This document shows positions 51,164 through 63,999 of a stretch of DNA of 64,000 nucleotides, one piece after another; position 1 is the first letter of the stretch; each line of letters opens with the position of its first letter. The stretch spans positions 1,860,001-1,924,000 of the forward strand of contig CAJZHL010000001.1 in NCBI GenBank assembly GCA_916048055.1, written 5' to 3'. Made by a program: the position numbers and the translations under genes. Below the pieces are notes generated by a model. That model saw only the letters and a program-made list of their open reading frames with translations, ran no database searches and had not been told where the DNA came from. This stretch comes from Pedinophyceae sp. YPF-701 (taxonomy: Eukaryota > Chlorophyta > Pedinophyceae).

Positions 51164-51334
51164 GGCCGCGCTGCCGGGGCGGGGCGTGCACCGCCGGCCG
51201 TCCGCCGCCAGGCAGCGCGCGGACGCGACGCGCCTCGCAGCCTGCTGAGGTGAGGTGAGGTGTTACATTCTTCGCGTCGTCAGCCATAAGGCTTTGGGAC
51301 CTGAAAAGATCATTCGACTAGGTGGCGAGTCATG

Positions 51335-51700
51335 CTAGCCCCCCACCGTTATGGTAGCGACAGGTTCGGCAGCTGTGACAGAGTCAGCCTGGAGCAGATC
51401 CTCGATGCCATGAGCGAAGATCGCCATGCCTCGCTGATTCGGCAGGTTCAGAAGACAACGCACGGCAGCGTTGGCAGCGGCTTCCGAGTCAAGTACTGCG
51501 GCACCGTGCAGGTCCTCGAGGTGCTGGCGCAGCCGGCGGCTGAGCGCGAAGCGGCGGCGCTGTCCAGCAGTTGCCGTGGACGACAGGGGCGCGTCGGCAG
51601 CGGGCGTTGGCGGTAGCATGAGCTGCCCAGACGAGTCCACGGCCAAACCCGCGCGTTCCACGTTGGAACGAAATCGTCTCACTGATCGTTCATCACACGC
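51335..51700 (-). CDS. Possible gene fragment next to LRR tandem
   Basis: Frame with protein-like composition (RRLRQHLEDLHGAAVLDSEA, AVRCLLNLPNQRGMAIFAHG, IEDLLQADS) that ends at 51335. No ATG suits it, and its upstream part runs into the repeated flank shared with the LRR genes. It may be the last exon of a gene cut off by the duplication, or chance. No family is recognised. Confidence 0.3.
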   Translation of the reverse strand, partial: ACDERSVRRFRSNVERAGLAVDSSGQLMLPPTPAADAPLSSTATAGQRRRFALSRRLRQHLEDLHGAAVLDSEAAANAAVRCLLNLPNQRGMAIFAHGIEDLLQADSVTAAEPVATITVGG

Positions 51701-52547
51701 CGCCGACGGTGAGGGTCGACACGCTCCTACTGGAGTCGGCGGTGGCACCGCGCCCTGGATGTCGCATTCATGGAGTCGTCGCACCTTGCAAACAGTGTAT
51801 CCGTGTCAGTGTAACGCTGCGAGCGTGTAGAAGTGCGACTCGTCCCGCGTGGATGGCCCTGGAGCTCAGCGGGCGGGAAGCGCCTGCCATGTGCGCCGCG
51901 GTGCGTTTTCGATGGCCGTGGTCTGTCAGCGGCCGAGTTGTACCACCATACGCACTCCCCCAACCGTCCCGAGCGGCACCATGCGATCGCGCCCGCCTCG
52001 CACATGGTCAGTGTGACTGGCGCGCGATCGGCCGCACATCGGCATCGCGCCGGGACGACAGCAGGCCGTGCAACTGCTTGTAGCAGGTGAGACGCGGGGC
52101 GGTGGTCGCGGAACGCGCTTGCGGCGGTTGGCGCTGATCGCACGGGCGTGGTGGGGGTGTGCGCTATCTCGCGGGCTGCCGTGCGAGTCGCATGGAGCGC
52201 CCAACACGCTGCGCACCGCGTGCGTCTCTTGCGCTGGAGGGAGCTCGGCCGTGGGGCTGCGTTGCGGGAGACCCTTGCTCGGTTGTCACGATGTCACGTG
52301 ACAGACACTAGGTGTCATGCCGAGCCCGGCTGCATGCGCGCGCCGGACGGCTCTCACAGCTCCCGCTACCTCACCTCCTGGAATCTCTCTCATTGGCACC
52401 CGCAGGACCCGTCCACGGGGCTCCGGCGGCGGCGCGGCATCACGGGCACGATCTCTGCAGTCGATGGAACTGCGAGGTGGCCGCTGCGTGTGCGGGTGGG
52501 GGCCCTCGCAGCGCCCACGCGCTGGTGACGATGACGCACACACTCTG
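51690..52547 (+). repeat. LRR-unit flanking repeat, copy 1
   Basis: About 860 bp upstream of the first LRR gene that recur, highly similar, at 55100-56000 and in part at 57630-58128. Landmarks such as CATTCATGGAGTCG (51768), GTGAGACGCGGGGCGGTGG (52087, 55535, 58061) and the segment before the LRR start line up in order. Coding content, if any, is not evident. Confidence 0.85.
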
Positions 52548-54975
52548 ATGGATCTGTCGTTCGGGCCGGGCGGCGGTCCGCTGGGAGACATCGTCCGCCT
52601 GCTGCCCATGGGGTCGCGCGTCGCCCTCGCGGCTGCGTCGTCGGGCACGATGGCGAGCGTGCTGGAGGGCTGCGGGGGGGCTCGGTGGACCGCACGCACA
52701 AGGGAGGTGGGCAGGGCGGTGGCGGGGAAGGTGGAGGGGCGCGTGTACGCGGGGGCGAGATCGCTGGTGGGGCGGGCGAGCGACGACGGGCGGTGGTGGG
52801 TGTACCGGCGGGCGGGTGCGGACCCCGCCAGTGTGGCGGCGATCGTGGGGCTGGAGGTCAGGCGGTCGGGCCAGGGAGAGGGGCCTGTGGCGAACGCGGG
52901 TCGGCTGGTGATCACGGAGGAGATGACGGGGCTGGAGGTCGTCCGGGCGTCGCGGCATCATTTTGACATCGCTGAGGAGTGGGGGGGGGACTGGCTGCCT
53001 GCAGGCGTCGCGGCGCGGTTGAAGGAGCTAGTGGTGTGGGGGCAAGGTCTGCGGAGGCTGCCGGAGGGGATGGGGTCGCTGGAGATGCTCGACGTGAGCA
53101 AATGCAAGCAGCTGGCGGAGGACGGGTGGCTGCCGGCGTCGAGCGGCGGGAGCGTGAAGAAGCTGGATGCTTATGACTCGTCGCTGGCGAGGGTGCCGGA
53201 GGGGATGGGGTCGCTGGAGGAGCTGAACGTGGGGTATTGCGAGCAGCTGGCGGAGGGGTGGCTGCCGGCGTCGAGCGGCGGGAGCGTGAAGAAGCTGGAT
53301 GCTCATGGCTCGTCGCTGGCGAGGGTGCCGGGGGGGATGGCGTCGCTGGAGATGCTCGAAGTGAGCAAATGCAAGGAGCTGGCGGCGCAGGGTGGCTGCC
53401 GGCGTCGAGCGGCGGGAGCGTGAAGAAGCTGGTTGCTCGGGACTCCTCGCTGGCGAGGCTGCCGGAGGGGATGGGGTCGCTGGAGGTGCTGGACGTGCGT
53501 AACTGCTCGCAGCTGGCGGGGGAGGGGTGGCTGCCGGCGTCGAGCGGTGGGAGCGTGAAGAAGCTGGATGCCCATGGCTCGTCGCTGGCGAGGGTGCCGG
53601 AGGGGATGGCGTCGCTGGAGATGCTCTACGTGCGTGAATGCAAGGAGCTGGCGCAGGGGTGGCTGCCGGCGTCGAGCGGCGGGAGCGTGAGGGCACTGTA
53701 TGCTACACACTCGTCGCTGGCGAGGGTTCCGGAGGGGATGGGGTCGCTGGAGATGCTCGACGTGAGCGAATGCAAGGAGCTGGCGGAGGGGTGGCTGCCG
53801 GCGTCGAGCGGCGGGAGCGTGAAGAAGCTGTTTGCGTGGGAGTCCTCGCTGGCGAGAGTGCCCGAGGGGATGGCGTCGCTGGAGGCGCTCAACGTGAGCG
53901 GATGCAAGGAGCTGGCGGAGGGGTGGCTGCCGGCGTCGAGCGGCGGGAGCGTGAAGAAGCTGGCGGCATGGCGCTCGTCGCTGGCGAGGGTGCCGGAGGG
54001 GATGGCGTCGCTGGAGGCGCTCGACGTGAGCGAATGCAAGGAGCTGGCGGCGGAGGGGTGGCTGCCGGCGTCGAGCGGCGGGAGCGTGAAGAAGCTGGAT
54101 GCTGCGAAGTCCTCGCTGGCGAGGGTGCCGGAGGGGATGGCGTCGCTGGAGGCGCTCAACGTGAGCGAATGCAAGGAGCTGGCGGTGGAGGGGTGGCTGC
54201 CGGCGTCGAGCGGCGGGAGCGTGAGGGAGCTGTGTGCTACACACTCGTCGCTGGCGAGGGTGCCGGAGGGGATGGGGTCGCTGGAGGTGCTCAACGTGTT
54301 CGCCTGCAAGCAGCTGGCGGAGGAGGGGTGGCTGCCGGCGTCGAGCGGCGGGAGCGTGAAGACGCTGCTTGCTCGGGGTCCTCGCTGGCGAGGGTGCCGG
54401 AGGGGATGGGGTCGCTGGAGGTGCTCAACGTGTTCGCCTGCAAGCAGCTGGCGGAGGAGGGATGGCTGCCGGCGTCGAGCTGCGGGAGCGTGAAGACGCT
54501 GCTTGCTCGGGAGTCCTCGCTGGCGAGGGTGCCGGAGGGGATGGCGTCGCTGGAGGAGCTGAACGTGGGGTATTGCGAGCAGCTGGCGGCGGAGGGGTGG
54601 CTGCCGGCGTCGAGCTGCGGGACCGTGAAGAAGCTGGAGGCACGGGGCTCGTTGCTGGCGAGGGTGCCGGAGGGGATGGGGTCGCTGGAGGAGCTCGACG
54701 TGAGGTGGTGCGAGAAGCTGGCGGCGGAGGGGTGGCTGCCGGCGTCGAGCTGCGGGAGCGTGAAGAAGCTGCATGCTGTGCACTCGTCGCTGGCGAGGGT
54801 GCCGGAGGGGATGGGGTCGCTGGAGGTGCTGAGTGTACTTTGCTGCACGCGATTGGCTGCGGGCTGGCTGCCGACGTCGAGCTGCGGGAGGCTGCGGGAG
54901 CTGTTTGCCACGGACTCGCAGCTGCAGATGCTGCCGGAGGAGCAGATGCGGTCCCTGGCATCTCTACGACGTTGA
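52548..54975 (+). pseudogene. F-box-like/LRR repeat gene, copy 1, two frameshifts
   Basis: Starts MDLSFGPGGG. The first 60 residues (LGDIVRLLPMGSRVALAAAS) look like an F-box-type helical motif, which is an inference. A conserved domain follows (DDGRWWVYRRAGADP; VITEEMTGLEVVR). Then come about 14 tandem units of about 44-46 residues (132-138 bp). Each holds two leucine-rich repeats: one LxxLDVSxCKxLAxEGWLPA and one SVKKLDAxxSSLARVPEGMG. The end is QLQMLPEEQMRSLASLRR. The frame breaks near 53388-53394 and near 54377, each by one missing base relative to its sister units. An in-frame ATG at 52317 would lengthen the N-terminus. Either the gene is decaying or the assembly has homopolymer errors; every unit keeps its consensus, so decay is recent if real. 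Confidence 0.75.
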
Positions 54976-55099
54976 GCGATCAGTGTGAGCGCACGTACGA
55001 ATGTCGACTCCCGGGAGGACGATGCGATAGGTCACTGCCGGCGCCCGCCTCGTACAGCCCTCAGCGGCGAAGTCATGAGGCCACAACAGGCTGCAAGAC

Positions 55100-56000
55100 A
55101 GTCGTCTTGGACGTAGCTTGCACACCGCCGACGGTGCGCGTTGACGCCGCGATGGCCCCGGAGTCGGCGGTGTCACCGTGCCCTGCTGGATGCCGCATTC
55201 ATGGAGTCGCACCCTGCAAACAGTGCAGCCGTGTCCATGTGACTCTGCGAGCGTGTAGAAGTGCGACTCGTCACGCGTGGGATGACGGCCCTGGCGCTCA
55301 GGCCGGCGGGAAGCGCCTGCCATGTGCGCTGCGGTGCGTCTTCAATGGCCGTGGTCCGTCAGCGGCCGAGTTGTACCCTCATAGAGGAGGTGTTAGTGCG
55401 CACTCCCCCAACCGTCCCGGGCGGCACCATGTGACCGCGCCCGCCTCGCACAAGGTCAGTGTGGCTGGCTCGCGATCGGCCGCACATCGGCATCGCGCCG
55501 GGACGACAGCAGGCCGTGCAACTGCTTGTAGCAGGTGAGACGCGGGGCGGTGGTCGCGGAACGCGCTGGCGGTGGCTGGCGCTGATCGTAAGGGCGTGCT
55601 GGGGGTGTGCGCTATCTCGCGGGCTGCCGTGCGAGTCGCATGGAGCGCCCAACACGCTGCATGCGGCGTGCGTCTCTGGCGCTGGAGGGAGCTCGGCCGT
55701 GAGGCTGCGTTGCGGGAGACCCTTGCTGGGTTGTCACGATGTCACATGACAGGCACTAGGTGTCATGCCGAGCCCGGCTGCATGCGCGCGCCGCACGGCT
55801 CTCACAGCTCCCGCTACCTCACCTCCTGGAATCTCTCTCATTGGCACCCGCAGAATCCATCTACGACCCCCGGCGACGGCGAGGCATCACGGGCACGATC
55901 TCAGCACTCGATGGAGATGCGAGGCGGCCGCTGCGTGTGCGGGTCGGGGCCCTCGCAGCGCCCACGCGCCGGTGGCGATGACGCGCCCACATTCGCGCTG
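55100..56000 (+). repeat. LRR-unit flanking repeat, copy 2
   Basis: Matches copy 1 along its whole length and copy 3 over its first part, with scattered substitutions and small indels. The offset to copy 1 is about 3448 bp, so the tandem unit is flank plus LRR gene. Confidence 0.85.
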
Positions 56001-57496
56001 ATGGACCTGTCGTTCGGGCAGCACGGCGGCGCGCTGGCGGAGGTGATCCGCCGGCTGCCCGGGGAGTCGCGCGCCGCCCTCGCGGCTGCGTCGTCGAGCG
56101 CGATGGCGAGCGTGCTGGAGAGCTGCGGGGGGGCTCGGTGGACCGCACGCACAAGGGAGGTGGGCAGGGCGGTGGCGGGGAAGGTGGAGGGGCGCGTGTA
56201 CGCGGGGGCGAGATCGCTGGTGGGGCGGGCGAGCGACGACGGGCGGTGGTGGGTGTACCGGCGGGCGGGTGCGGACCCCGCCAGTGTGGCGGCGATCGTG
56301 GGGCTGGAGGTCAGGCGGTCGGGCCAGGGAGAGGGGCCTGTGGCGAACGCGGGTCGGCTGGTGATCACGGAGGAGATGACGGGGCTGGAGGTCGTCCGGG
56401 TGTGGGGGGGGGGGCATTTTGAAATTGTTCGGGAGTGGGGGGGGGACTGGCTGCCTGCAAGCGTCGCGGCGCGGTTGAAGGAGCTGGCGGTGATCGGGCA
56501 AGGTCTGGCGAGGCTGCCGGAGGGGATGGGGTCGCTGGAGGTGCTGACGTGGAGACTCAGCAATCAGCTGGCGGAGGAGGGGTGGCTGCCGGCGTCGAGC
56601 TGCGGGGAGCGTGAGGGAGCTGGTTGCTTCATGCTCGTCGCTGGCGAGGGTGCCGGAGGGATGGGGTCGCTGGAGGTGATCGACGTGAGTCGGTGCGCAA
56701 GCTGGCGGGAGGGGTGGCTGCGGCGTCGAGCGGCGGGAGCGTGAAGAAGCTGGATGCTTCATACACGGTGTTGGCGAGGCTACCGGAGGGGATGGGGTCG
56801 CTGGAGGAGCTTGTCGTGAGGTGGTGCAGGCAGCTGGCGTGGGAGGGGTGGCTGCCGGCGTCAAGCAGCGGGAGCGTGAAGAAGCTGGATGCACGGGGCT
56901 CGTTTATGTCGAGGGTGCCGGAAGGCATGAGGTCGCTGGAGGTGATCGACGTGGGTGAATGCACGCAGCTGAAGGAGGGATGGCTGCCGGGGTCGAGCTG
57001 CGGGAGCGTGAAGGAGCTGCTGGCTGATATCTCCTCGTTGGCGAGGGTGCCGGAGGGGATGGGGTCGCTGGAGGTGCTGAACGTGAGCAAATGCAGGCAG
57101 CTGATGGCGGAGGGGTGGCTGCCGGCGTCGAGCGGCGGGAGCGTGAAGAAGCTGGATGCTGCGAAGTCCTCGCTGGCGAGGCTACCGGAGGGGATGGCGT
57201 CGCTGGAGGAGCTGGACGTGAGCGGGTGCAGACATCTCGCGGAGGAGGGGTGGCTGCCGGCGTCGAGCGGCGGGAGCGTGAAGAAGCTGCTTGCTGATGA
57301 CTCGTCGCTGGCGAGGGTGCCGGAGGGGATGGGGTCGCTGGAGGTGCTGAGTGTACTTGGCTGCGGGCGTTTGGCTGCGGGCTGGCTACCGGTATCGAGC
57401 TGCGGGAGGCTGCAGGAGCTGCACGCCACGGACTCGCAGCTGCAGATGCTGCCGGAGGAGCAGATGCGGTCCCTGACATCTCTATCACGTTGTTGA
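56001..57496 (+). pseudogene. F-box-like/LRR repeat gene, copy 2, several frameshifts
   Basis: Paralogue of the gene at 52548. The N-terminal part (MDLSFGQHGG, RRLPGESRAALAAAS, then the same DDGRWWVYRRAGADP domain) is nearly identical, while the repeat part is shorter, about 7 units against 14. The frame is lost in a short stretch: an extra G near 56604, a missing G near 56657, a rearranged unit at 56686-56702, and a missing C near 56718. After that the frame is open to LQMLPEEQMRSLTSLSRC at 57496, which ends differently from copy 1 because of one more shift near the stop. It is probably a pseudogene, and the changes cluster within about 120 bp. Confidence 0.75.
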
Positions 57497-57629
57497 GCGA
57501 TCAATGTGAGCGCACGTACGAATGTCGACCCCCGGGAGGACGACGCGATAGATCACTGCCGGCGCCCGCCTCGCTCAGCCCTCAGCAGTCACGTCATGAG
57601 GCCACAACAGGCTGCAAGACAATCGTCTT

Positions 57630-58128
57630 GGGCGTAGCTTGCACACCGCCGACGGTGCGCGTTGACGCCGCGATGGCCCTGGAGTCGGCGGTGTCACCGC
57701 GCCCTGCTGGATGTCGCATTCATGGAGTCGCACCCTGCAAACAGTGCAGCCGTGTCCGTGTAACTCTGCGAGCGTGTCGAAGTGCGACTCGTCCCGCGTG
57801 GGATGACGGCCCTGGAGCTCAGTCCGGCGGGAAGCGCCGGCTGCCATGTGCGCTGCGGTGCGTCTTCAATGGCCGTGGTCTGTCAACGGCCGAGTTGTAC
57901 CCGTTGTCCCCTCGTGGAGTTGTGCGCACTCCCCCAACGGTCCCGGGCGGCAGCATGCGACCGCGCCCGCCTCGCACATGGTCAGTGTGACTGGCGCGCG
58001 ATCGGCCGCACATCGGCACCGCGCCGGGACGACAGCAGGCCGTGCAACTGCTTGTAGCAGGTGAGACGCGGGGCGGTGGTCGCGGAACGCGCTGGCGGTG
58101 GTCGGCGCTGATCGCACGGGCGTGGTAG
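57630..58128 (+). repeat. LRR-unit flanking repeat, copy 3, truncated
   Basis: Third copy of the flank. It follows copies 1 and 2 up to about 58126 (before the CACGGGCGTGGT landmark ends) and then stops abruptly at the inverted repeat and the retroelement relic. No third LRR gene follows. The offset to copy 2 is about 2526 bp. Confidence 0.85.
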
Positions 58129-58175
58129 ACGAGGGGGCTGCGCTTCTGTGAGTCTGAGAAGCGCAGCCCCCTCGT
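58129..58175. repeat. Perfect 19-bp inverted repeat with 9-nt loop
   Basis: Arms 58129-58147 (ACGAGGGGGCTGCGCTTCT) and 58157-58175 are exact reverse complements, with loop GTGAGTCTG. The right arm belongs to the reverse-transcriptase relic (it encodes its YEGAALL part on the minus strand), so the left arm is an inverted extra copy of relic sequence at the junction with the flanking repeat. Confidence 0.95.

Positions 58176-60675: not shown

Positions 60676-63999
<3,324 letters not shown>

Follow-up and report, generated by a model that had tools for sequence, protein, structure and literature searches.

An F-box-like/leucine-rich-repeat gene family with exchanged double-repeat units in a pedinophycean green alga: candidate germline-diversifying substrate receptors

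A 64,000-nucleotide stretch of contig C1 of the green alga Pedinophyceae sp. YPF-701 (hereafter the window, in which positions are given unless a contig is named; 72% GC) contains two tandem genes, at 52548-54975 (gene 1) and 56001-57496 (gene 2), that belong to a large F-box-like/leucine-rich-repeat (LRR) family. Each features an N-terminal domain of about 170 residues, followed by an array of units of about 135 bp, each of which encodes two LRRs. Patterns of identity and substitution suggest that units are exchanged within and between loci and that a few exposed residues per unit are under diversifying selection in the subfamily of the window genes. We consider it rather likely that these proteins are germline-diversifying substrate receptors of SKP1-cullin-F-box (SCF) ubiquitin ligases, the targets of which would probably be foreign or fast-changing proteins. 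An initial annotation of the two genes had proposed a recombining recognition repertoire; further copies, changes in array length, unit exchange and selection agree with this proposal at the sequence level, and recognition itself stays a prediction.

Array-length variants of one cassette

Judged by sequence, the two genes are array-length variants of one cassette. Their N-terminal segments (52548-53047 and 56001-56503) agree at 92% of positions, with one stretch of 279 bp exactly alike (52669-52947 in gene 1, 56122-56400 in gene 2), which confirms the near-identity reported at first. Tandem Repeats Finder detected a 135-bp period in both arrays, with 13.3 copies and 87% matches at 53054-54830 in gene 1 and 6.3 copies at 56505-57348 in gene 2. 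A DNA profile of the unit identified 14 units in gene 1 (53049-54917, spacing 132-135 bp) and 7 in gene 2 (56505-57435, spacing 128-136 bp), the same numbers as had been estimated by eye. The duplicated segment reaches past the cassette ends, from about 51693 to about 58126, and includes about 850 bp of upstream and 600-700 bp of downstream flank. The parts of the region are the following.

51246-51659, no strand assigned: dispersed repeat of about 415 bp, immediately to the left of the cassette (sequence matches genome-wide)
51693-52547, plus strand: 5' flank of gene 1, which also precedes gene 2 (blastn, 88% to 55121-55990)
52548-53047, plus strand: N-terminal domain of gene 1, with the F-box-like segment roughly at 52578-52673 (placed by eye)
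53049-54917, plus strand: gene 1 array, 14 units of two LRRs each, with frame changes near 53390 and 54380
54918-54975, plus strand: C-terminal end of gene 1 to the stop codon (end of the open reading frame)
54976-56000, plus strand: intergenic part of the cassette, largely repeated 3' of gene 2 (direct repeats; 54830-55560 is 91% identical to 57348-58086)
56001-56503, plus strand: N-terminal domain of gene 2 (sequence match to gene 1)
56505-57435, plus strand: gene 2 array, 7 units, with the frame broken between about 56540 and 56720
57436-57496, plus strand: C-terminal end of gene 2 to the stop codon (end of the open reading frame)
57497-58126, plus strand: shared 3' flank of gene 2 (sequence match)

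Family size and exchange of units

A genome search for more copies, set beforehand as a test, was run on one assembly (27.9 Mb, 32 contigs), a nuclear one that carries RbcS and 24 light-harvesting complex (LHC) matches. A 953-bp query containing the N terminus and the first units (52548-53500) matches from its start at 30 places on 11 contigs, the two in the window included, with 81-100% identity. At the protein level, the N-terminal domain has at least 148 matches; the total is a minimum, and a few split genes are counted in it. The upstream flank is matched, at varying length, in 17 of the 18 other window-subfamily loci examined (L009-L026, with L026 as the exception), and hence the spread of most near-identical cassettes seems to have involved whole segments of DNA. 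We found no earlier description of the family in the literature searched, which comprised titles and abstract openings and had most subscription journals outside its coverage.

Array length, which had been supposed to change by unequal crossing-over, ranges from 4 to 19 units in 32 window-subfamily arrays, some of which are cut by contig ends. The arrays on contig C10 that were examined in full contain 7-9 units by the unit profile, which derives from the window subfamily and is approximate for other family members. Three contigs start or end inside family arrays (C4:1, C17:504722 and C21:436384); the assembly is thus interrupted within these arrays, and the number of arrays counted is a minimum. 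On contig C20, 23 family matches are clustered (C20:144412-232468; L043, L044), and the cluster includes at least one extended segmental duplication with nearly identical copies; frames are long in the two pieces examined.

Several lines of evidence suggest that units recombine within and between loci, as first supposed. The longest exact match between arrays spans 659 bp (C28 and C30) within surroundings of 66-94% identity, the alignment of which may be out of register beyond the tract. Further exact tracts measure 301, 284, 262 and 247 bp, and the median over 496 array pairs is 47 bp. Tracts of at least 100 bp occur in 15 of these pairs, 10 of which are among the 433 pairs located on different contigs. 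The gene 1 array has exact stretches of 155 bp and 147 bp in common with arrays on C4, and one member, L019, carries a tandem block of three units (405 bp, 444 bp exact). For 20.8% of the units, the nearest framework neighbour is a unit of the same array, compared with 3.5% on average over 200 shuffles. Between units of one array, framework identity is 0.889, and between units of different arrays 0.870; the within-array value is the higher in 18 of 24 genes. Such a small gap suggests that exchange or a shared recent origin ties loci almost as closely as the units of a single array.

Variable codons and selection

From 550 unit matches, those with more than four gaps were dropped, which left 267 units (182 from the window subfamily and 85 from diverged members). 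In the 182 near-full units, entropy peaks at positions 16, 18, 19, 21, 41, 43 and 44 of 45, which are the variable letters in L-x-V-x-x-C-x and L-x-A-x-x-S. C20, W28, L29 and L40 never vary, and L12 and L23 hardly do. In the 85 diverged units, five of the seven positions are the five most variable, and positions 41 and 16 rank lower, behind, for instance, 10 and 22. The variable positions correspond to the exposed beta-strand letters of the LRR consensus and, in addition, to the letter after the cysteine. The consensus and the sequence matches thus place the seven codons at or beside exposed positions of the LRR beta-strands, and the description of double-LRR units with variable residues at fixed spots holds. 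The 18 near-full units of the window feature 18 different seven-position strings, two of which agree wherever both have a residue (one is gapped), leaving 17 clearly distinct. Across units with all seven residues, 139 of 152 have distinct combinations.

The ratio of non-synonymous to synonymous substitution rates (dN/dS) was calculated over the 1232 unit pairs in which framework identity reaches 93% or more, identical pairs and pairs below the stated identity being left out. It is 1.94 at the seven codons (1.56-2.31, bootstrap over genes) and 0.70 at the others (0.57-0.88). The former value rises with framework identity, from 1.31 over all 16459 pairs through 1.63 at 90% to 1.96 at 95%; the latter ranges from 0.68 to 0.76 across the cut-offs, and is 0.68 over the 16459 pairs. 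Because the genome is GC-rich, the neutral ratio was simulated with the substitution spectrum of the non-coding flank, and amounts to 0.91-0.92 for the seven codons and 1.09-1.12 for the others. The choice of codons after inspection of the data could inflate dN/dS, and two retests were therefore made. Ten positions taken from the LRR consensus, which were written down when the entropy result was known, yielded 1.39 (1.18-1.61) versus 0.77 (0.65-0.91). When one half of the genes served to choose the positions and the other half to test them, the median was 1.64 (1.40-2.05), the halves not being independent because genes exchange units. The 68 units from cleaner genes gave 1.64 versus 0.81. These ratios indicate diversifying selection at exposed residues in the window subfamily.

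The N-terminal domain

The term F-box-like, used in the initial annotation, is supported for the family, with weak support where a member is taken singly. Ten family segments, combined into a profile and aligned with hhalign to eleven Pfam F-boxes of the same genome, scored 26.5 over 29 columns; the maximum of 200 column shuffles was 17.1, the reversed profile scored 16.3, and the score without the two closest F-boxes was 22.6. One of these two, L058 (on C1), carries a Pfam F-box that scores 20.7 bits against a cut-off of 20.5, and its LRRs show the WLPxSS signature of the family and match a family member with a blastp E value of 2e-33. Three matches to the SKP1 family are present in the genome. 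LRR_6, LRR_RPS2 and LRR_4 exceed their cut-offs on the intact member L019, which thus has the C-terminal LRRs of the FBXL type, and the window pieces reach LRR models below cut-off. Membership of the FBXL group is, on these grounds, probable.

Pfam scans of four window pieces, six N-termini and the L019 protein revealed no NB-ARC domain, and WD40, NACHT and ROC-COR domains had no match in the scans of window pieces, N-termini and L019. Genome-wide, NB-ARC has two matches, both on C2. The closest solved LRR by sequence is 7crb (E 1.1e-05), presumably a plant Toll/interleukin-1-receptor-type nucleotide-binding LRR protein (TIR-NLR).

Proposed function and alternatives

If the proteins are SCF substrate receptors, the F-box-like part would dock on SKP1 of the ligase and the concave LRR face would bind a target protein, while recombination and selection would renew the binding faces over generations. 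The targets would most likely be foreign or fast-evolving proteins, for instance of viruses or other invaders. A more specific version, in which over one hundred germline F-box-LRR proteins, with faces renewed by the exchange of double-LRR units between chromosomes, mark foreign (e.g., viral) proteins for degradation, is offered only tentatively, and we hold it to be on balance doubtful. If true, the alga would possess an equivalent of the plant NLR repertoire that works through ubiquitin, its own genome having only two NB-ARC matches. To our knowledge, little is established on how green microalgae recognise invaders. This one genome displays what may be the raw material of a recognition repertoire, i.e., many units, exchange between loci and selection on likely contact residues, carried on an F-box-like domain instead of an NLR chassis. 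Should an intact member bind both SKP1 and a foreign protein, the role of F-box families in innate immunity would become directly testable in a small genome.

Several observations weigh against the SCF receptor reading, and the first of these concern selection. The diverged units have a dN/dS of 1.02-1.09 at the variable codons, without clear excess, and the diversification of exposed residues that had been proposed is clear in the window subfamily only. The variable codons and those next to them show more synonymous differences as well, and some of the excess may therefore stem from ancient variation that has been kept, or from mutation that differs locally. Synonymous diversity beside the variable codons is tied most to the immediate neighbour codons, with a weaker link to codon 16 and to a few codons of the framework; this would be expected where short patches keep their diversity and conversion makes the remainder uniform. 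For the N-terminal domain, dN/dS is near neutral (0.98 in 26 window-subfamily sequences and 1.05 in 13 diverged ones, with a simulated neutral value of 1.04).

The near-neutral N terminus would also fit genomic drift, the main alternative, in which mostly non-functional F-box/LRR copies expand and shrink at random, the similarity of units reflecting recent duplication and their variability relaxed constraint. Hua et al. 2011, in the excerpts of PMC3030570, make the case that plant F-box families evolve by drift and contain many pseudogenes, and contest positive selection in them. We judge drift unlikely as an account of the family, since relaxation would not lift dN/dS at exposed codons above the neutral simulation while the framework stays below it. 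With these codons above the neutral ratio, drift explains broken copies but not the codons themselves.

The state of the reading frames is a second set of adverse observations, and breaks in most near-identical copies are what drift would produce. Both window copies are frame-broken in the assembly, with shifts near 53390 and near 54380 in gene 1 and at least two between about 56540 and 56720 in gene 2; neither is a single open frame, which had gone unnoticed, as had the full extent of the duplicated segment. Most arrays of the near-identical subfamily change frame. Although 28 near-identical N-termini are open across the query (from residue 1 or 3 to 174; two more, on C18, are broken), 21 of the 28 sit in open frames shorter than 500 residues and 7 in frames of 500 residues or more. 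Of the remaining 120 N-terminal matches, 105 lie in frames of the latter size, which argues against drift, though GC-rich DNA keeps long frames by chance more easily; among the 15 matches in shorter frames, 3 belong to the two broken C18 copies.

Frame breaks were assessed by comparing arrays with their nearest units elsewhere; only 6 diverged units passed the length filter, so that for diverged arrays the comparison is not a fair control. The C18 array L013 differs from its nearest units by 3 mismatches and 12 frame-changing indels, and the array at the end of C21 (L012) by 14 and 17, respectively. As the differences are mainly indels, they point to uncorrected long-read consensus in several arrays. 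Other arrays, among them those of the window with 0.14 and 0.16 frame-changing indels per mismatch, are nearer to the 0.081 of the upstream flank, and such copies may therefore be real pseudogenes. Duplication need not bring damage with it: on C20, two segments separated by 20.9 kb differ by 2 mismatches and no indel in the first 6.5 kb and by 68 mismatches and 4 indels in the last 3.4 kb, and the three genes in each keep long frames. A count of frame breaks by alignment to a concatenated unit (601 events in 39,450 bp) was not used, as it over-counts at variable codons.

It is also conceivable, if very improbable, that the array breaks exist in the genome and serve a purpose, one cassette yielding LRR proteins of different length according to the number of units that precede the truncation. 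Such a use would fit the 28 open N-termini next to arrays with many breaks, and the low rate of frame-changing indels per mismatch in N-termini (0.026) relative to the upstream flank. However, the indel-rich differences of arrays such as those on C18 and C21 are the signature of uncorrected long reads, and the diverged genes at L027 and L028 keep one frame each.

The remaining adverse observations concern the F-box and the targets. A Pfam scan of six family N-termini alone identified one F-box match, in L041 (E 0.0091), which is below cut-off; single members below cut-off, the profile match and L058 together account for the label F-box-like/LRR. Taken by themselves, the 130 N-terminal residues of L058 have weak matches in the family (blastp E 0.005 with L045, the best, and 0.07 with L019), so that the strong L058 match rests on the repeats. 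No relatives of the family were found in viral_contigs or genome_contigs, which are viral and prokaryote collections.

The weak F-box match within the family would suit proteins that act outside the ubiquitin system, i.e., intracellular LRR receptors for self/non-self or mating recognition, the F-box-like part of which no longer binds SKP1. Fungal NWD genes evolve alike without an F-box, as far as the excerpts of PMC1805685 describe them. Against this possibility, to which we give slightly less credit than to drift, stand the bridging gene L058, which joins a Pfam F-box to similar LRRs, and the SKP1 family genes of the genome.

Sequences bordering the window cassettes

Of 176 candidate matches to the repeat of about 415 bp at 51246-51659, 40 were scored, on many contigs; one of these is the repeat itself, and identity is 91-95% for the remaining 39. 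Pieces of it also adjoin family cassettes at L012, L015, L018 and L021, and the repeat may mark ends where cassettes inserted or recombined. An exact 18-bp inverted repeat (58130-58147 and 58157-58174) is located just past the right end of the cassette. Another LRR-like frame, at 61217-62692, matches LRR parts of bacterial effector models below cut-offs and, by eye, is not of the double-unit type.

Comparison with known systems

Nematodes have large, lineage-specific F-box families that are proposed to face pathogens, and we know of no high-identity tandem double-LRR units in nematode or plant F-box families. The excerpts of PMC3030570 describe plant F-box families that resemble the algal one in being large and lineage-specific, with divergent substrate-binding domains; these too are proposed to face pathogens, and positive selection in them is disputed. 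The F-box/LRR families of Neochlamydia (NEX1) differ in that they are bacterial genes, proposed to interfere with host ubiquitination (PMC4209131, in the part consulted).

The NWD/HNWD allorecognition genes of Podospora anserina (het-d, het-e), a set of 10 genes the repeats of which have been shown to set specificity, contain high-identity units, the number of which varies; according to excerpts of PMC1805685 and PMC2873952, these units evolve in concert both inside a locus and across loci, a small number of surface codons in each unit is under diversifying selection, and pseudogene members join the exchange. All these traits have likenesses in the algal family, but in Podospora the repeats form a WD40 propeller behind a NACHT domain. 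The LRR-ROCO genes of brown algae, candidate immune receptors in an alga, share with the present family shuffled LRR units and positive selection at concave-face sites (positions 14, 16, 18 and 19 of the LRR); in the text excerpted from PMC11378527 they differ in that each LRR is a separate exon, shuffling is accompanied by alternative splicing, and a ROC-COR domain is present, without an F-box. In the F-box-like/LRR family, by contrast, the units are consecutive in one frame where intact. To judge from these likenesses, the algal family would work like the Podospora NWD and the LRR-ROCO repertoires while belonging to neither.

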